DNA from: Syncephalis plumigaleata | Taxonomy: Eukaryota; Zoopagomycota; Zoopagomycetes; Zoopagales; Piptocephalidaceae | Assembly (NCBI GenBank): GCA_025201365.1 | Contig: JAIXMF010000003.1 | Location: forward strand, 1-64,000 | Length of the DNA: 64,000 nucleotides | Direction: 5' to 3' | Shown: positions 2,966 to 61,534 of the stretch, piece by piece | Layout: each line of letters opens with the position of its first letter | How positions within the stretch are numbered: the first letter of the stretch is position 1 | Notes under the pieces: generated by a model | What the model saw: the letters and a program-made list of their open reading frames with translations, nothing else | Told to the model about the DNA's origin: nothing | Database searches by the model: none | Made by a program: the position numbers and the translations under genes

Positions 2966-3389
2966 GGCTCACATTAATGGGTCTATAGGTATAGCCATGG
3001 TGATCATGACAACATTCATTATTGTTTCAATTCTGAGACATATGCATGACGATGACCATACACTCTGGCCTTCATGACTATACCTCCTTTTATATCCCTC
3101 CAATAATAACACAGCACATACCAGCATGTTCCTCATTTCAATATGATTGAATGAATGCACTTGTAGTGTTCTCGCTTCATTACCCATGTCATGAAAAATT
3201 GGTGAGTGTAGTTGACATGTTCACTATACACATGACTCCCATGTCGCTACCTCCTCTAGTATGCTTCCTATATCGTTTTCATTAATACCACCATGTTCTC
3301 CATTACAATGCTGTAGCTTTGTTACTCGATTTATTATACATTATTGCATTCATTCAATGTTGTTATGCTCATTTCTTTACTAGTCCCGC

Positions 3390-5290
3390 TCCTTCCTCGC
3401 ATGTTATATTCATTACACTCATTCTCTCACTCGCTCGCTCTACTCATTCCTTGCATAATCTTGTCACTATACTCACATTCCTCTCGCTCGATCTCATCAC
3501 TTCCCTCGGGTTCTACTCACTATACTCACATTCCTCTCGCGTTCTATTCTTTCATCGTGCGTTCTACTCACTTCTCTCATTCAATCTTGTTCTTTATACT
3601 TACTATACTCACTCATCTCTCTTCATCTCGTCACTATATCCACTCCTCTTGCTCGATCTACTCGTTCGCGGCGTGCTTTACTCTTTCTTCTTACTCGTTC
3701 TATTCATTACTCGTGTGTTCTACTCACTACTCTCACTCCTCTCGCTCGGATCTACTCACTATACTCAATACGCTCACGCATTCGTCTTACACTCCTCGCT
3801 TATTCTACTTGTTTCTCGCTCGATCTTGTCACTATACTCACTCCTCGCGCGTTCTACTCATTCCACTCACTTCCTCGTCCGTTCTACTAATTACTCTTAC
3901 GTTCGTCGCGCGTTCTACTCACTTCTCTTGCACTTCTATTCATTCGTCGTGTGCTATACTCATTACATTCAATACGCTTTCTATTGCATGTTAACTAATT
4001 AACGTTCAGCATATATTCTTTTATTATACGTGTATGCACTCGTTACTATTAACTAACCACACTACTACAGCAACTATTCTTCTCGCTCAATCTCGTTTCT
4101 CTTGCACGATCTACTCATTACTCGCCCGTTCTTGTCATAATACTCACTCCTTCCGCTTGATCCCGTTCCTTTTGCTTGATCTACACGTTCCCGCTCAACC
4201 TACTCATTCGTTGCGCGCTTTACTCTCCTTTCTCTCGTGTTCTACTTGCTTCCCTTATACGATCTACTCACTATGCTCGTTTCTCGTGCACTTCACTCAT
4301 TCCTCTCGCTCGATCTTGTTCTTTTGCTCACTTCTTTCGCTTAAGCTCACTCCTCTTGCACGATCTAGTTCGTTGCGCGCTTTATTTATTCCTCTTACTC
4401 ATTATACTTGTTTCCTGCTCGATCTCCTCGCTTACTCGTCAACCGCATATCTATCACCGTACCACTCGTAGGAGGTGGATATGCTCACTAGTGCACTTGT
4501 GAACGCACTCGCTTTGTTTACGCGTTACTTCTTTATTCCTCTCACTATTTGTTCTGCCATTCATCATTCCTGCTTCCCTTGATTCTTTTGCTTACTCTTC
4601 CACCTCTATCCGTCTTTCCCCGTTAGCCACTCTCCATCTGCTCCTCGCTACGCTAACACTACACGTCGCTTACCTGAATACAATCCCATACCTGTACTCC
4701 TCTTCTCATTACTCGTTTGTTGTTCTCGGTCACCTTCACTATTCGTATATTCCTATTCCCGTTGTTGTTATTGCTGCTGCTCTATCAATAAGTCAACGCC
4801 ACGCCATACGTTTACGCGTTCTATTCGTTTTCTCTATTGCCTTTACTTCTTTGCAGCTTGTGATGCTTCTCTACGGACAACCACTGCAATTACACGTTAT
4901 ACGCACTTTATTCCGCTGTGTTTGTCCTCCACTCTATAGCACTCGTACACGATAAGTCTACACTGTTTATTTGTATTCTAGTCTGGTGCTTGTACCTGTA
5001 CACGATACTACTGCTACTTGTTGACCCTATCCCTTGTTTATCAAACTACGATACTGCACTCTCGTCAGATCCGTACCAGTTACCTGTATTCTATCACTGT
5101 ATGCTTCTATGGAATCCTCACACTGTTTGTTTACCGGTCTGTATGCGTATCGTCATCAGTCTGTATTGACTACTAGGAGTAGCTTTATATGCGTACATGC
5201 AGGTTAGTCGACCAGGAATGTACTGCTATAGCTTCTCCCGGTAGTATACCACTTGCTAAAGCATATTGTTTGGTTAATATCGCTCACAGC
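3390..5290. repeat. CT-rich degenerate repeat element, copy B
   Basis: This has the same architecture as 1-1380: dense ctcgctcgatct/actatactcact repeats up to about 4480, then a more complex segment that matches 660-1380 with moderate divergence. The offset between copies is about 3.8 kb in direct orientation. Long serine- and leucine-rich frames here follow from the pyrimidine bias and are not treated as genes. Confidence 0.55.
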
Positions 5291-10687: not shown

Positions 10688-10693
10688 TTTATT
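10688..10693 (-). terminator. Polyadenylation signal of the microexon gene
   Basis: AATAAA on the minus strand, about 120 bases after the predicted TAG stop of the microexon gene. Confidence 0.45.
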
Positions 10694-10813
10694 CAATAAA
10701 TGATTGAATGGTCTTGTAGATATATTTCTTGTGTCCAAGGAATAATGACTTGAATAGCATGAATACTAAAGGGTCTTGCGCCAATACATTCTTGACTTGA
10801 ATACCTATAATAT

Positions 10814-13026
10814 CTACTTGATGATGTCCTTGTCTTGCTCTGTAGTCATAATGGATTAGTATGAGTATGATTATTGTGGATTATTACTTACTGCTTATTG
10901 TGGTGGCATTCAATCGATGTACATCGCATTGTGATTAATATATCGTAGATGACGATTGAAATAATGACTTACGAGTTACTATACATGAGCGTATGTGGAT
11001 CGTGTGTCATATTAACATTAATACACCTATACGTTATCATCGGAAACAGTAACTTACGCACTGTTATCCACAAATGTATGGAAATCATGTGCCGTATTGT
11101 CATTAGTACCTCATTCATTGCAGTCAGAATGATTACTTACAATCTGTTATGCGAAAACGTATGTTGGCCATGTGCCGATACTGTGGTTAGTACGCCATAT
11201 ATTACAATTATATTGTAACTTACGCGCTACCATACGGGAACATAAGAAAATCGTGCGCCATAATACAATTAGTACATTGATACATTGTAATCATTCTGAT
11301 TACTTACTTTCTATCATACAGGAAATTATGCGCCACGCTACAATTAGTACATCGATACATTGTAGTCAGAATGATTACTTACGCCCTGTCATACAATAAC
11401 GTAGATGGATCATTTGCCATATTATTATTAGTACGTCATTCATTACGGTTAGAATGGCTACTTACATCCTAGCATACAAGACGTGTGTAAATGTGTGCCA
11501 TAGCATAATTAGTATCCCATTCATTACGTCAGAATAATGACTTACAGGCTGGTATACAGAAACATACGTGGATCATGTGCCATAGTGTAGTAGTACACCA
11601 TTCATTACGGCAATAATGATAACTTACTCTCTATAATTCAGGAATATATGTTGATCGTATGCCATACTGCGATTAGTGCATTCATTCATTGCAATCAGAA
11701 TAATAACTTACGGTCTAGCATACAAGAGCATACGTGATTAGTACATCAGGTATAATGATCAGAATGATTACTTACATACTATCATCGAGAGCATAGGTGG
11801 AGCATGTGTGATATCATAGTTAGTACATCCATTCATTACGATCATAACGGTAACCTACGCACTGTTATAGGCAGATATATGAATTGTATGGCAGATTATG
11901 ATTAGTATACCATAGATTATAAATGGAATGATAACTTACACACTGTTATACCGGGATATACGTATGGATGTGTGCATATCATAATTAGTATATCCATTCA
12001 TTACAGTCAGAATGATTACTTACAGGCTGGCATCCAAGAACATATGTGAATCATATGACATATTATAGTCAGTATCTCATACGTTGCAGTCAATATGTTA
12101 ACTTACTCTCTATCATACGAAATCATAGGTGGATCGTATGCCATACCATAATTAGTATCTTATCCATTACAGTCAGAACAAAGACTTACTTGCTATCATA
12201 CAATGGTGCATAAATTGTGTGCCATGTCATAATTAGCACGTCATACATTCAACTAGAATGATAACTTACAGGCTGATATACAAGAATGTATGCGAATCAA
12301 ATGCCATAGCGTAGTTAGTGCCTCATTCATTACAGTCGGAAGGGTAACTTACAGTCTATCATACACAGGCATGTGTTAATCGCGTGCCATATTGTGATTA
12401 GTGCCTCATTCATTCAGCTAAAATGTTAACTTACAGGCTGGTATCCAAGAACGTATATGAATCATATGACATATTATAGTCAGTATCACATACGTTGCAG
12501 TCAGTATGTTAGCTTACTCTCTATCATACGAAATCATAGGTGAATCGTATGCCATGGTAGAATTAGTACGTCATTCATTACGATCAAAATGTTAACCTAC
12601 GCACTGTGATAGACAAGTATATGAATTGTGTGACAGATTATAATTAGTAATCCGTTCATTACAATCAGAATGATAACTTACTTTCGCTTGACATAGTAGT
12701 CACATATGATTTTGATTTATATTACGATTAGCATAGTACTTGTTATGGTCAATAGAATAGCTTACTGCTTCGAGCTAACAAATTAATAATAAAATAAACA
12801 TTATGTGTGATTAGCATGTCAAAACAACCACTTGATATACATGAACTTACGATCTATCAGTAATCATCGGTGGGCAATGAAACAATAGACTATGATTAGT
12901 ACATCAATTGATAGGGTCACGGCCAGACATACTAGGACGATCCAGGACGGGACTAGCTTCAACAGCGACCAGACTGGTGAGAGCGACAACGGCGACGGCA
13001 ATAGCGATAATGGCAAAGAACTTCAT
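10814..13026 (-). CDS. Microexon-array gene: secreted peptide of about 65 aa from about 27 exons
   Basis: Exon 1 (13026-12933) encodes a classic signal peptide, MKFFAIIAIAVAVVALTS and on to a V-E-A cleavage region. It ends at a GTATGT donor. Then come exons of 3 nt (12853-12851), 9 or 2 nt (12774 or 12767 to 12766), 5 nt (12686-12682), and twenty exons of exactly 3 nt from 12603 to 11058. Exons of 6 nt (10978-10973) and 2 nt (10893-10892) and a terminal exon from 10839 follow. All 26 introns are GT...AG, 52-83 nt, mostly 77-81, nearly all with a CTAAT/CTAAC/CTGAC branch word. With the 2-nt form of exon 3 the joined message is open to TAG at 10816-10814 and includes ADLLLKDLVAIPDLMANAF, a plausible amphipathic helix. 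No family was recognised. The role is unknown, possibly effector-like. Confidence 0.75.
10973..12603 (-). repeat. Tandem array of about 80-bp intron-plus-microexon units
   Basis: About 20 degenerate units of roughly 80 bp share a consensus on the minus strand: donor gtaagttatcattctgact, then gtaatgaatg, the branch region gtactaattataatatggca, catgattca, and gtatgatag as acceptor, followed by 3 nt. Units differ visibly from one another, yet the donor, the acceptor and the 3-nt gap are kept. Blocks repeat at a longer period too: the exons at 12518 and 12435, with their introns, match those at 12107 and 12024, an offset of 411 bp. The array therefore grew by tandem duplication of introns together with their microexons. 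Confidence 0.8.
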
Positions 13027-13164
13027 GTTGAGGTTGGCCTAGTGGAATGGATAGATAGCTCAGCTAACTAGAACGAGAGTAGAAAGTAGAGAGAGAGAGT
13101 AGTGAAAGTAGAGTAGAAGAGTGAGTAGGAAGACGACAAGTTGAGTGTGTCAAAAAGTGCTCGA

Positions 13165-13170
13165 TTTATA
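13165..13170 (-). promoter_or_regulatory. TATA box of the microexon gene
   Basis: The minus strand reads ggctataaatcg about 140 bases before the ATG. It is followed by a strongly pyrimidine-rich leader (minus strand across 13075-13130). This TATA plus CT-rich leader is the usual layout of highly expressed fungal promoters. Confidence 0.5.
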
Positions 13171-43734: not shown

Positions 43735-45308
43735 ATGGGTTTTAAGGAGTTTACGCGGCATCTGCTTGTGCGGAAGTCGCTATCAGACCTTGCTGCTCAA
43801 GCGCAAAGCGGAGAGCTAGCACGATCTCTAGGAGCCATTCAACTTACCGGATTGGGTATCGGTGCCATTATTGGTACTGGTATTTTCGTGTTAACCGGTA
43901 CTGCTGCTGCAAACTATGCCGGTCCCGCTGTCGTCATTTCATTCGTGATCTCGGGTCTTGCCGCTGCATTCGCCGCCCTGTCCTACTCGGAGCTCTCCTC
44001 GATGATTCCGGTGGCCGGTTCGGCGTACACTTACACTTATGCCACTATGGGCGAATTCCTTGCCTGGATCATTGGATGGGACTTGATTCTCGAGTATCTT
44101 GTTGGTGCCGCCACTGTATCCGTCGGTTGGTCAGGATACATGATATCGTTCCTGGAGACCGTGTCTGGAACCAAGTTTTCCACATCACTCATCAATGCAC
44201 TGGTCAAGTTTAACCAGCAACACAGGCATTCGAGTCGACCGGCGATATCATGAACTTGCCAGCAATCCTCATTGTTATTGTGATTACAATTATTCTTGTA
44301 TTCGGTATCAAGGCGTCCGCCCGATTCAACGCCGCCATGGTTGTAGTTAAACTTACGGTTATCCTCCTATTTATCTTTGCTTGCTGCAGCAAAGTCAATA
44401 CCGATTACTACGAACCATTTGTACCTGAGCGTACACCCGACGGCAAATATGGCGGTAAAGGTATCTTCACGGCATCGACGGTTGTGTTCTTTGCCTATAT
44501 CGGATTCGATGCAGTCTCTACAGCCGCGCAGGAAGCCAAGAACCCACAGCGTGATATGCCAATCGGTATTCTTTCATCTCTGGTCATCTGTACTGTTCTC
44601 TATATCGCTGTAGCTGCCATTCTTGTTGGTCTCTTACCTTATACCGAGCTTAATACTTCTCACCCACTTACCTATGCCATCCAGAAAGCTCTTGGATGGA
44701 AATGGCTTGTCATTATCATTGACATTGGTGCCATCGCTGGTTTAACATCTGTCATGCTTATCATGTTGATGGGTCAACCACGTATCTTCTACGCCATGGC
44801 AGTTGACGGTCTCTTCCCCAAGTTTGTCGCTAAAGTTCATCCAAAATACCGTACACCTTATGTTATTACCCTCATCACTGGCGCTGTTTGTGCCGTTGCT
44901 GGTGGCGTACTACCCATCGATGTACTTGGTGAAATGACATCTATCGGTACACTCTTCGCATTCTTACTGGTTAATATTGGCGTCATCATTCTACGCTATA
45001 CAGCAAAGGATATGCCACGTCGATTCAAGGTACCAGGTGGACCATTCATCGTTCCAGGTCTCGGTGCACTCTTGTCACTTGGATTGATCGCCACTGCAAC
45101 CATTCCAACCATCGAACGATTGTTCATCTGGATGGCTGTCGGTATTGTGTTCTACTTTGCCTATGGCTATCGTCGCTCTTACCTTAATCATCCAGAGCGT
45201 CGTCCTGTCGATATGGTCGGACGTGGTAGCGATCCATTCGCAGAAGTCAACAATGAGAAAGAGGTTGCCGACCACCAAACCGAGCAGGGCATGATGCGTG
45301 AGCATTAA
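43735..45308 (+). CDS. Cationic amino acid transporter (APC family), copy 1, one frame break
   Basis: An APC-superfamily transporter of the CAT/YfnA type. The N-terminus reads MGFKEFTRHLLVRKSL, then the TM1 motif GLGIGAIIGTGIFVLTG, and 12 predicted membrane helices over about 525 residues. The frame breaks at about 44212: the text is aaccagcaacacag where copy 2 has aaccaggcaacacag, one base more. The two frames (43735-44253 and 44250-45308) otherwise continue each other exactly. The C-terminal part has a DMPRRFKVPGGPFIVPG loop and ends at TAA. It probably imports amino acids at the plasma or vacuolar membrane. It lies tail-to-tail with copy 2, 226 bases apart. Confidence 0.88.
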
Positions 45309-45534: not shown

Positions 45535-47129
45535 TCAATTCTTTACTTCTGAGATCGGTCCTGATTCCATTTCTTGTACCTCGCGTGTCTTATCGTCGAA
45601 TTGCGTATCAGCAAATGGATCGCTACGACGACCGACCATATCGGCAGGACGACGCTCTGGATGACCAATATAGGAATGACGATAACCATAACCAAAGTAG
45701 ATTATGAGACCAACACCCATCCAGATGAACAGTCGTTCAATGGTTGGAACGGTTGCAGTGGCGATCAATCCAACCGATAGGGCTGCACCAATACCTGGAA
45801 TGAGGAATGGTCCACCTGGCACCTTGAATCGACGTGGCATATCCTTTGCTGTATAGCGTAGAATGATGACGCCAATGTTAACAAGGAAGAAGGCGAAAAG
45901 TGTACCGATAGATGTCATTTCACCAAGTACATCGATGGGTAGTACCCACCAGCAATGGCACAAATAGCACCGGTAATAATTGTGATAAGGTAAGGCGTGT
46001 GATATTTTGGATGAACCTTAGCAACAAATCGAGGGAAAAGACCATCAGTCGCCATTGCGTAGAAGATACGCGGTTGACCCATCAACAAAATAAGCATGAC
46101 AGAGGTCAAGCCAGCGATGGCACCAATATTGATAATGATAACAAGCCATTTCCATCCAAGTGCTTTTTCAATAGCATAGGTAAGTGGATGGGAGATGTTA
46201 AGCTCGGTATAAGGTAAGAGACCAACAAGAATGGCAGCTACAGCGATATAGAGAACAGTACAGATAACCAGAGATGAAAGAATACCGATTGGCATATCAC
46301 GCTGTGGGTTCTTGGCTTCCTGCGCGGCTGTAGAGACTGCATCGAATCCGATATAGGCAAAGAACACAACCGTCGATGCCGTGAAGATACCTTTACCGCC
46401 ATATTTGCCGTCGGGTGTACGCTCAGGTACAAATGGTTCGTAGTAATCGGTATTGACTTTGCTGCAGCAAGCAAAGATAAATAGGAGGATAACCGTAAGT
46501 TTAACTACAACCATGGCGGCGTTGAATCGGGCGGACGCCTTGATACCGAATACAAGAATAATTGTAATCACAATAACAATGAGGATTGCTGGCAAGTTCA
46601 TGATATCGCCGGTCGACTCGAATGCCTGTGTTGCCTGGTTAAACTTGACCGGTGCATTGATGAGTGATGTGGAAAACTTGGTTCCAGACACGGTCTCCAG
46701 GAACGATATCATGTATCCTGACCAACCGACGGATACAGTAGCGGCACCAACAAGATACTCGAGAATCAAGTCCCATCCAATGATCCAGGCAAGGAATTCG
46801 CCCATAGTGGCATAAGTGTAAGTGTACGCCGAACCGGCCACCGGAATCATCGAGGAGAGCTCCGAGTAGGACAGGGCGGCGAATGCAGCGGCAAGACCCG
46901 AGATCACGAATGAAATGACGACAGCGGGACCGGCATAGTTTGCAGCAGCAGTACCGGTTAGCACGAAAATACCAGTACCAATAATGGCACCGATACCCAA
47001 TCCGGTAAGTTGGATGGCTCCTAGAGATCGTGCTAGCTCTCCGCTTTGCGCTTGAGCAGCAAGGTCTGCTAAGGGCTTTTGAGTAAAAAGCCGTTTGGAA
47101 ATCGCACGAGCTTTTTCTTTAACCGTCAT
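45535..47129 (-). CDS. Cationic amino acid transporter (APC family), copy 2, one frame break
   Basis: The inverted partner of the gene at 43735-45308. It starts MTVKEKARAISKRLFTQKPL, so the first 20 residues differ from copy 1. From 47068 down to about 46200 it is almost identical at DNA level to copy 1, then diverges to perhaps 85-90 percent. A one-base loss near 45944 (ggtgggtac where copy 1 has ggtggcgtac) splits it into 47129-45915 and 45963-45535. Copy 1 is intact there, and copy 2 is intact where copy 1 breaks. The C-terminal tail differs (EVQEMESGPISEVKN). A TATAAA lies upstream at 47416-47421. Confidence 0.88.
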
Positions 47130-59554: not shown

Positions 59555-59627
59555 AGCCCAATGCGGGGATCGAACCCGCAACCTTGAGATTAAGAGTCTC
59601 ACGCTCTACCGATTGAGCTAACCGGGC
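59555..59627 (-). tRNA. tRNA-Lys (anticodon CTT)
   Basis: The minus strand folds as a cloverleaf: acceptor GCCCGGT pairing with ATTGGGC (one G-T), A-box TTAGCTCAATCGGTAGAGC, anticodon stem-loop with CTT in GACTCTTAATCTC, and T-arm GCGGGTTCGATCCCCGC. It is 73 nt, with no intron. Confidence 0.95.
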
Positions 59628-59636
59628 TGTTATAAA

Positions 59637-59750
59637 CTACATTACTTTGAGTTCCCGCGTGGTCTCCCACCGCAGTACTGAGAAAGCGCGGCCTGGCTTG
59701 ACTTCGGAGATCGGACGGGATCCGGTACCTTTCAGGCGCTTTGAACGTAG
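59637..59750 (-). rRNA. 5S ribosomal RNA
   Basis: The minus strand carries the conserved 5S core ACCGGATCCCGTCCGATCTC, followed by CGAAGTCAAGCC and GTGGGAGACCACGCGGGAA. The ends pair as helix I (CTACGTT with AATGTAG). It is about 114 nt, slightly short. It sits 9 bases from the tRNA-Lys gene on the same strand, as an isolated 5S copy outside any rDNA array in this window. Confidence 0.9.
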
Positions 59751-60209
59751 TTGAAAATTTGATCATTTATAACATGACATAGCACATACTTGAAAATACG
59801 CAAAAAACGAGCCTTTTGCTTTTTTAACGTTTCTACTTGCTACACCGTATCAGTATCTTGCTAAGAGTAATAAAAAAGACAGGGAAAGAAAGGAAATACA
59901 AGCTAGTGCAGTGATCAGTAGTAATTGGTAATAAAAAAGTAATTGGTAGTAAAAAAGAAAGAAAAAAAGCTATTGTAGCGGCCTGCAGCGCTCGGTAATA
60001 GATGAAGGGAAAGAAGAAAGAGAATATATGCTAGTTGATGTAGTAGTGAGCAGTACTTGATAAGAGAAGGAAAGGAAAGAAGAGGAGAGAATATATGCTA
60101 GCGAATGACGTGATAAGATCAGTAGTAATTAACAGTAGATAAAGGAAAAGAGGAAAGAGAAGCTAATGACGAGACTACTAGTAATTGGTAAGAGAAGAAC
60201 AGTAATAGA

Positions 60210-60322
60210 GCTACTGTCGTAATTACTCGTACTTGCTAACAACAATAATAACAATGAGAATATATGCTACTGTCGTAATTACTCGTACTTGCTAACAACA
60301 ATAATAACAATGAGAATATATG
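60210..60322. repeat. Two-copy tandem repeat, period 56 bp
   Basis: The unit beginning gctactgtcgtaattactcg and ending with gagaatatat is repeated exactly. A degraded third copy follows. Looser relatives of the same words (gagaatatatgct, agtaatt) occur from about 59990. There is no coding content in 59760-60760. Confidence 0.7.
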
Positions 60323-60760
60323 CTATTGTCGTGATCACTCGTAATGGGTAATAATAAAGTAAGCTAATAGCAACATTCTACGATTAATAAGAGCGTATTA
60401 GGTCATTCATTCGTTTGTTTAATAAACAAGGCGTGTTTCTATTTCATACACATGTAAACACTATGATACACATTTAGTAGTTGGTAATACACAGGGTGCG
60501 CAATCCGTATATTCATTCAATAAAAATCTCGTCATTAATTGCCAAAACAAAACAAAATTTTATATATTTCCGAACGTATATAGGGACGTTGACCGATGAA
60601 AATGCGTATTGTATTACGGAAGGAGAGGAAGTGGAAGAGTGGTCATAGCAAGGGAGACAAAGTCATCGGTAGAGTGGTAATGGTAGTAGCAGTAATGGTA
60701 GTAGCAGTGGTTATACTTTGTTATTATAATGAGTAGTGACCGCTGTGTTCCTACTGTTGC

Positions 60761-61534
60761 TTACTGCTGGGACTCCTCGTAGGCGGAGACCTCGTACTCA
60801 GTGTCCTTGTCGGCTTCCTTGTCGGCATCGGAACGCTTGATGGGCTCTTCGCGTTGACCGTTATCATTCTCGCAGTAGATTTGCTTGGTGTGTGGTCGGT
60901 ATACGAGCTTGAAGGCCTTCTCGACATTGCAGGTAAATGTATTAGTGAGTGTGTCAACACCGCTCTTCACGTAGGCGACACCTTCGCTGGCCTTCTTCTT
61001 GATGTTGGATGGGGAGACTGGACGGAGGATGACGACGACACGGTCCTTGGCGGCACTACCGAAATCACCGATGGCGTGGACACCCTTCTCACCAGCGTTG
61101 TATAAACCGGTGGCACCCCAGGCGATCGTACCGACGACGAACTTGGTACCGGTGCTGAGAGCTTCGGCGGTAGCCTTTAGCGCCTTCTTTGCGGTTTCCT
61201 TACTTTCATCGATGAATTCACCGGTCTTTTGGGCGGCCTTCTTGGCAGTCTCCTTGCTTTCATCGACGAAATCGCTAGCCTTCTCACCAGCCCTGTGGAA
61301 CTTATCCTTGGCATCTTCCTTGACATCATGGAAGAATTTACCGGTCTTCTCGGCGGCAACCGCGGTATGGCCAGCGGCAGTACCAATGGCATTACCGGTA
61401 GCACCGACGAAGCTTAGACCATCGCCAATTGGCTTCTCTTGTGGGTTGGTGAAGGGAATGTCTGGAGCGGGCATCGCTGCGACAAAGGCAGCCATGGCCA
61501 CGACGGCAGAGAAAAGAGTAATTGGCTTGAACAT
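60761..61534 (-). CDS. Secreted LEA-like amphipathic repeat protein
   Basis: Single exon, 257 codons. The signal peptide MFKPITLFSAVVAMAAFVAA is followed by a hydrophilic, Lys/Glu/Ala-rich helix region with a near-perfect internal duplication: DFVDESKETAKKAAQKTGEF and EFIDESKETAKKALKATAEA. These 11-mer-like repeats resemble group 3 LEA and related desiccation proteins. A C-terminal domain has two cysteines (TFTCNVEKAF and QIYCENDNG) and an acidic tail. A TATA box lies at about 61697-61702. The combination of a signal peptide with LEA-type repeats suggests a wall- or spore-associated protective protein. That is inference. Confidence 0.8.
   Translation of the reverse strand: MFKPITLFSAVVAMAAFVAAMPAPDIPFTNPQEKPIGDGLSFVGATGNAIGTAAGHTAVAAEKTGKFFHDVKEDAKDKFHRAGEKASDFVDESKETAKKAAQKTGEFIDESKETAKKALKATAEALSTGTKFVVGTIAWGATGLYNAGEKGVHAIGDFGSAAKDRVVVILRPVSPSNIKKKASEGVAYVKSGVDTLTNTFTCNVEKAFKLVYRPHTKQIYCENDNGQREEPIKRSDADKEADKDTEYEVSAYEESQQ

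Follow-up and report, generated by a model that had tools for sequence, protein, structure and literature searches.

The closest described counterparts of the gene presented here are the MEG genes of Schistosoma mansoni and the bicycle and megacycle genes of aphids. MEG genes form a multigene family for secreted, variable proteins, in which numerous tiny exons, usually divisible by 3 nt in length, come after a signal peptide; the text gives 10-20 such exons per gene, mostly of 15 bp and ranging from 6 to 81 bp (3-81 bp in its abstract), with introns of 0.1-5 kb (PMC10526429). Bicycle genes encode fast-evolving putative effectors and have many very small exons of constant phase, about 17 exons on average with the internal ones nearly all in phase 2, and megacycle genes use over 100 microexons to encode about 2,000 residues (PMC9168663, excerpted text). 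Still smaller exons are known in isolation. Plant microexons of the 1-nt/3-nt size class are spliced (PMC8831610), fungal lipS has two 3-nt exons (PMC5639578), isolated 1-nt or 3-nt exons occur in Drosophila homothorax (PMC7392893) and Fusarium CYP621A (PMC12940212), and a model of intron definition in which introns are taken out stepwise has been put forward for Arabidopsis APC11 and its 1-nt exon (PMC4674806).

The gene lies on the minus strand of a contig of Syncephalis plumigaleata, a zoopagomycete whose genus is mycoparasitic according to the excerpted text of PMC10386755. It falls within the 64-kb stretch of DNA that was analysed as a whole and is referred to as the window. Like the MEG genes, and whether related to them or not, it has short exons, mostly a multiple of 3 nt, behind a signal exon; unlike them, the Syncephalis exons are mostly of 3 nt, follow one another up to 45 in a row and are separated by introns of about 80 nt that are related to one another. 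Runs of single codons are not described in the excerpted account of the bicycle and megacycle genes (PMC9168663), whereas the Syncephalis arrays consist of them, and the accounts of APC11, plant microexons, lipS, homothorax and CYP621A, as far as their excerpts go, place one or two tiny exons in an ordinary gene where Syncephalis has dozens in runs. Among the matches listed from open-licence PubMed Central titles and abstract starts, we found no description of runs of single-codon exons or of the Syncephalis gene family. From its sequence, the locus is very probably a working gene of a large family, with true single-codon exons whose introns would be removed stepwise by intron definition.

The splice chain of the window gene (Table 1) was parsed by dynamic programming, which scores donors, branch words and acceptors and takes no account of reading frame; AG-NNN-GT sites were the training set for its splice-site matrices. 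Two versions of the parser, one mildly favouring 3-nt exons and the other without length preference, returned the identical chain. It comprises 26 GT-AG introns of 61-87 nt (median 80), most of them related to one another, and internal exons of 3, 9, 5, 20 x 3, 6 and 2 nt, which is the anatomy put forward in the original prediction. That prediction left the third exon at 9 or 2 nt; the 9-nt form, which keeps the frame, is retained, and the 2-nt form is not. Exon 1 encodes MKFFAIIAIAVAVVALTSLVAVEASPVLDRP plus one base, and phase 0 is reached by 94 + 3 + 9 + 5 nt, directly before the codon run. Since the 5-nt exon resets the phase of exon 1 to zero, each later 3-nt exon is one codon. The joined message reads MKFFAIIAIAVAVVALTSLVAVEASPVLDRPNPRSTKCRPTPQRPCCYTRPDGKRIC and then TAA, with four cysteines in the product. 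It is open for 57 codons and not for the approximately 65 claimed earlier, as the TAA is in frame in the 6-nt exon (10,978-10,973), and the 2-nt and terminal exons would thus be 3' UTR. In the paralogs the stop is usually in an exon ending in TAAGCA, the own acceptor of which is missing in the window gene. Upstream of the gene there is a TATA-like element, and TATAAATCGAGC occurs likewise in the upstream sequence of two paralogs, L012 and L016. The units of the array are tandemly related, with a period of 165 and 73% matches at 12,138-12,504.

Table 1. Features of the single-codon-exon gene in the window; exons and introns are as predicted by the frame-blind splice-chain parse.
Feature	Position	Strand	Remarks
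Array gene	13,026-10,892	-	parsed splice chain; 94-nt signal-peptide exon and 26 introns
TATA-like element TATAAATC	13163..13170	-	about 140 nt upstream of start codon; putative promoter
Exon 1, 94 nt	12933..13026	-	signal peptide MKFFAIIAIAVAVVALTSLVAVEA and short pro-part SPVLDRP; ends in phase 1
Intron run	10894..12932	-	about 80 nt each; GTAAGT-type donor, CTAAT/CTAAC-like branch word, TAG/CAG/AAG acceptor
Microexon 2, ATC	12851..12853	-	splice-chain parse
Microexon 3, CTCGAAGCA, 9 nt	12766..12774	-	splice-chain parse
Microexon 4, CGAAA, 5 nt	12682..12686	-	brings frame to phase 0
Single-codon exon TGC	12601..12603	-	Cys 1
Single-codon exon AGA	12518..12520	-	
Single-codon exon CCT	12435..12437	-	
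Single-codon exon ACT	12353..12355	-	
Single-codon exon CCT	12270..12272	-	
Single-codon exon CAA	12190..12192	-	
Single-codon exon AGA	12107..12109	-	
Single-codon exon CCT	12024..12026	-	
Single-codon exon TGT	11940..11942	-	CC pair, first Cys
Single-codon exon TGC	11859..11861	-	CC pair, second Cys
Single-codon exon TAT	11776..11778	-	
Single-codon exon ACC	11712..11714	-	
Single-codon exon AGA	11628..11630	-	
Single-codon exon CCT	11546..11548	-	
Single-codon exon GAT	11466..11468	-	
Single-codon exon GGC	11383..11385	-	
Single-codon exon AAA	11308..11310	-	
Single-codon exon CGC	11224..11226	-	
Single-codon exon ATT	11141..11143	-	
Single-codon exon TGC	11058..11060	-	Cys 4
6-nt exon TAACTC	10973..10978	-	in-frame stop TAA
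2-nt exon CA	10892..10893	-	3' UTR; at site of paralogs' exon ending TAAGCA
Terminal non-coding exon	10688..10839	-	start 10,839 (after CAG) or 10,804 (candidate acceptors)
AATAAA	10,693-10,688	-	within terminal exon

That the triplets are codons is indicated by their length and by the stops they lack. In 16 distinct arrays the pattern [CTA]AG-N(L)-GTAAGT occurs 423 times with L = 3 and never with L = 4, and lengths of 2, 5 and 6 account for 14, 8 and 7 occurrences. The 517 AG-NNN-GTRRGY triplets collected from these arrays by pattern alone include 62 for cysteine and no stop codon, where 46.5 stops are expected from all array triplets or 21.0 from position-specific composition; frames +1 and +2 have 3 and 47 stops in 501. 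Across the genome, the junction pattern GTAAGT-N55..80-AG-N(L)-GTAAGT was found 1,952 times with L = 3 (109 in a reversed-pattern control), 26 times with L = 4 (control 207) and 104 times with L = 6 (control 34). The strict pattern recovers 364 of 570 known 3-nt exons of the family, from which we estimate that the genome may hold about 3,000 single-codon exons, haplotype copies included.

A quite different reading is that the array is a non-coding tandem repeat within one long intron, so that exon 1 would be spliced straight to the terminal exon, leaving the triplets without a coding role. The tandem relatedness of the units would suit such a repeat, as would the fact that unspliced exon 1 continues to a 40-codon frame in 21/21 loci compared, yet the stop-free triplets, their strict 3-nt length and the cysteine pattern argue against it, as do the codon-specific avoidance and the intronless paralog of a second family described below. 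If the entire array were skipped as a single intron, nothing would account for the missing stops, the cysteines and the codon choice, and we give this reading hardly any credence.

The original prediction treated the locus as a single gene, and in this it was too narrow: array DNA from the window matches at least about 40 clusters genome-wide, the window's own included (merged by hand; 40 of 113 first-look candidates scored), and there is a second, unrelated family besides. A 231-nt piece around exon 1 likewise has at least 40 genomic matches (40 of 202 candidates scored). We examined 24 loci of the first family, consisting of the window, 20 further stretches and three more, and obtained chains in 22; in L030 the signal exon was not seen in its stretch, and the chain of L019 stops at the third intron. 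Exon 1 is 94 nt long in 21 of the 22 chained loci and 97 nt in L031. In 18 of the 22 the message reads open to a TAA, which in 17 is in the last exon of the chain (ending TAAGCA, TAAGCG or TAAACA) and in the window gene is in TAACTC, and in all 18 a 5-nt or 2-nt exon sets phase 0 ahead of the codon run. A stricter parse that skipped the 5-nt exon, whose acceptor is weak, was discarded: stops appeared in its messages, and looser thresholds, still blind to frame, recovered the exon. Among 17 arrays (the near-identical L016, L020, L023, L026 and L028 were set aside, together with L019 and L030), 570 of 641 internal exons are of 3 nt under the parser that mildly favours this length; with the parser that has no length preference, the figure is 472 of 533 in 15 arrays. 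The longest runs of 3-nt exons reach 45 (L014 and L022), and L017 has 69 introns for 118 codons.

Some loci depart from this pattern. A 2-nt exon is present in L011, L013 and L018 and the usual stop is not reached, and no stop was found in the chain of L024. It is possible that once-working arrays are now decaying in many loci and that the window copy is itself a pseudogene, for which one could cite the 2-nt exons of those three loci and, in the window copy, the absence of the acceptor that serves the usual stop exon. We consider this improbable, since the window copy has 57 open codons that include four cysteines, and a frame open as far as a stop is present in 18 of the 22 loci with chains; moreover, the window also has a permease gene, otherwise ordinary, with a frameshift, which suggests possible assembly indels.

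The predicted products vary in sequence around a common cysteine pattern, C..CC..C, with a CC pair and one cysteine on either side in 11 of 12 aligned products and spacers of varying length; L025 is without the CC pair. Exon 1 closes with RR in 10 of the 12, L012 has a basic stretch elsewhere, and the window gene has RP at this point. L031 (C68:38,900-43,500), which is outside the 12-product alignment, has single-codon exons and no cysteine in the part that they encode.

If these junctions are spliced, their signals should be under constraint, and six pairs of similar loci bear this out. Counting both directions, the donor GT differs in 0 of 1140 positions, donor positions 3-6 in 27 of 2279, the branch word in 40 of 2817 and the acceptor AG in 1 of 1140, and the remainder of the introns in 1229 of 36856. 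Donor, branch word and AG are thus more conserved than the rest of the intron (p from 2e-5 to 1e-8), and the base before AG, differing in 17 of 570 cases, is not conserved above background in this pair test (p = 0.74); the units share descent, so that this and the other tests assuming independence overstate significance. A few introns begin with GC, the parser allowing the hexamers GCAAGT, GCAAGC and GCATGT after any base. These donors follow a G in 11 of 11 cases, compared with 93 of 704 for GT donors (p = 4e-10), and a G before a GC donor is expected if U1 pairing must be compensated. With GT-AG or GC-AG ends, GTAAGT-like donors and CTAAY-like branch words, the introns would class as U2-type spliceosomal introns. 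A likely ordinary intron in the ABC transporter gene of the window, picked by eye, is similar (GTAAGT..CTAAT..TAG).

A further constraint is visible in the codons themselves. A codon ending in CA or TA forms CAG or TAG with the G of the following donor, and thus creates a rival acceptor. In those four-fold boxes where an A-ending codon makes YAG, the first family has 6 A-ending and 138 C/T-ending codons, compared with 895 and 1283 in ordinary-looking window ORFs (19 picked from 30; odds ratio 0.06, p = 3e-23). The GGN and CGN boxes, where an A-ending gives only GAG, have the same shared descent and serve as a control; they show no avoidance (odds ratio 0.85, p = 0.74). Similarly, CAG is used for 0 of 19 Gln, AAG is rare (6 of 35 Lys) and GAG is normal (12 of 24 Glu), an order that follows the acceptor preference C > T > A > G given in the excerpted text of PMC3095350. 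Selection against in-frame tandem splice sites has been reported for human coding sequence (PMC2279118, abstract-level text). In our judgement from sequence, codon choice is the most specific sign of splicing at these junctions.

The second family is unrelated to the first and shares its architecture of single-codon exons. A gene of this family on C1, L033 (with L034), has no signal exon, and its chain includes 64 three-nt exons with no stop among them, together with two 2-nt exons and an 8-nt exon. In this parse, joining the exons does not give an open frame (frame 0 has 5 stops, the other two have 9 and 12), and the support for coding comes from the exons read singly and phase-free. So read, the residues of the 64 three-nt exons and some longer ones align in order with an intronless 131-codon ORF, L035, on C318: the score is 127, whereas the best of 2,000 shuffles of exon order reached 83 and the other frames gave 43 and 21. 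Aligned stretches are EEHWIHDYIYRI with EQPWIQDYIVRV and ANQHLDLFGTIAFEKKQKD with ANQHLDLFGAAAFEKRQKD. Two paralogs, L043 and L044, score 67 and 93, as against at most 52 and 73 when each was shuffled 1,000 times. Codon avoidance is weaker than in the first family (NCA/NTA 16 versus NAA/NGA 32, odds ratio 0.27, p = 2e-5; four-fold boxes 4 versus 16, p = 0.07), and CAG is used for 0 of 7 Gln. The intronless protein has no Pfam match, and its sole match in a protein search is P0014 from the same species.

Two public gene models contain parts of the arrays. In the NCBI model P0001, 77 of 92 residues are the join of 42 of the 48 predicted exons of L028, including 39 of its 42 three-nt exons, and 40 single-codon exons of L023, taken in order with 4 skipped, account for the last 40 residues of P0005. 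Both models leave out some microexons and retain stretches that read as intron, and for this reason we count them as independent predictions and not as RNA evidence; they look like automatic predictions, which need not rest on transcripts. Taken with the intronless paralog of the second family, these two models, with about 40 such exons each, back the original prediction of a gene built mostly of single-codon exons. The same prediction is upheld by the stop-free triplets, the phase-setting exon and the conserved cysteine pattern, and also by splice-signal conservation, the G before GC donors and the avoidance of rival acceptors.

The exons omitted from P0001 and P0005 raise the question of whether the single-codon exons, although real, are mostly alternative, so that subsets of them would give many in-frame peptides. 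Dropping any 3-nt exon preserves the frame, which would make such use feasible. The frame-setting 5-nt or 2-nt exon is nevertheless required, as chains skipping it gave stops and 18 of 22 with it are open, the avoidance of acceptor-blurring codons points to selection for exact inclusion, and the CC pair is kept in 11 of 12 aligned products. We regard optional inclusion as rather unlikely and favor a gene in which every exon is joined.

What would such splicing look like? The short introns would be recognized as introns through the donor GTAAGT, the branch word CTAAY and the AG that follows, and an intron of about 80 nt whose signals are strong lends itself to intron definition. Two sites separated by 3 nt are very unlikely to be bound simultaneously; the introns are therefore most likely removed one by one, from 5' to 3'. 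Each joined codon would then become the end of a growing upstream exon that carries the next donor. Exon 1 would supply the signal peptide and a short pro-part, ending in a dibasic Kex2-like site in most aligned paralogs and not in the window gene, and the mature, fast-changing peptide, usually of the C..CC..C type, would be encoded almost wholly by one-codon exons.

The arrays appear to evolve by whole units. Related introns scattered singly over many unrelated genes would mark introner-like mobile introns. Among the matches listed, array DNA falls in clusters across the genome, and in the 64-kb window 24 of 25 matches to an HMM of the unit are inside the array (the other has E 0.67). When an intron is paired with its closest relatives in other genes, the codon downstream is the same in 89 of 519 comparisons, with 17.9 expected. 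An assignment of one intron type to each codon was set aside on these figures, most codons having changed; by sequence relatedness, the units are descended from one another and their codons change. A gene would gain or lose intron-plus-codon units as a whole and keep its frame, and one unit-sized indel was observed, a 164-bp difference between L014 and L020 that is worth two codons. In L009 and L010 all cysteines are kept and identity is 79-100% per intron, nine single-codon or stop exons differ, and the exons differ more than the introns (12% vs 7%). Positive selection as the whole story was rejected: despite this exon excess, pN for the mature part, pooled over six pairs, is 0.023 and below a pS of 0.048.

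On a broader reading, these would be codon-cassette genes, in which the building unit is one codon with one intron, amounting to about 3,000 exons in at least two unrelated families. Recombination between similar introns would allow single residues to be gained, lost or exchanged in frame, and synonymous codon choice would be shaped by the avoidance of rival acceptors. We lean toward this broader reading, with less assurance than for the status of the window locus itself.

If RNA confirms the predicted splicing, 45 single-codon exons in a row and 69 introns in 118 codons would be a finer division than in any gene we found described, and intron-definition splicing would need almost no exon. The arrays would serve as numerous natural tests of how splice sites separated by 3 nt are kept distinct, and they would provide a means of changing secreted peptides by single residues without loss of frame. 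Families of this kind would be missed or garbled by gene predictors.

The products are best read as mostly secreted, diversified cysteine-rich peptides, the signal peptide and RR suggesting secretion and, in most paralogs, dibasic processing. A role directed at the host fungus may be supposed from the mycoparasitic lifestyle; as no Pfam family and no solved structure was matched, function is a guess. Searches of Pfam with 12 products of the first family gave weak scattered matches (best E 0.016, in one member), and no solved structure matched products of this family. A search for intronless copies of the L014 and L031 mature peptides gave 0 matches for each, an empty answer being uninformative in this search. 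A protein search with predicted products, which needs shared 5-residue words, matched 28 proteins, 18 of them named Syncephalis plumigaleata and 10 bearing no species name; none is labelled as a trematode. In some of these a similar signal peptide is followed by other, longer sequence (P0007, P0012, P0016 and P0021 from S. plumigaleata; P0022, P0025 and P0026 from JGI), which may mean that genes of ordinary structure use this signal exon too. Six short proteins (P0019, P0020, P0023, P0024, P0027 and P0028; jgi/ena) have a similar signal exon that continues into sequence like the conserved beginning of intron 1, suggesting that other samples contain relatives whose genes begin in the same way. 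A short gene of secreted type at L032 (C1:2,254,500-2,257,500) has a few 3-nt exons, and its introns are apparently unrelated to those of both families.

Several other features of the window were observed. An amino-acid permease gene on the minus strand (45,535-47,129) is broken up into two frames that overlap, no intron being seen between the two, and the matching stretch of a paralog at 44,250-45,308 is not split; the split is either a frameshift or an assembly indel. Genes for 5S rRNA and tRNA-Lys (CTT) lie about 6 nt apart at 59,555-59,752 on the minus strand. On the plus strand, 3,319-4,471 has a strong strand skew, with few G and many C and T, and several overlapping low-complexity ORFs. 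A 56-bp tandem repeat of 2.4 copies with 96% matches is located at 60,210-60,343, near an ORF of secreted type at 60,761-61,534.
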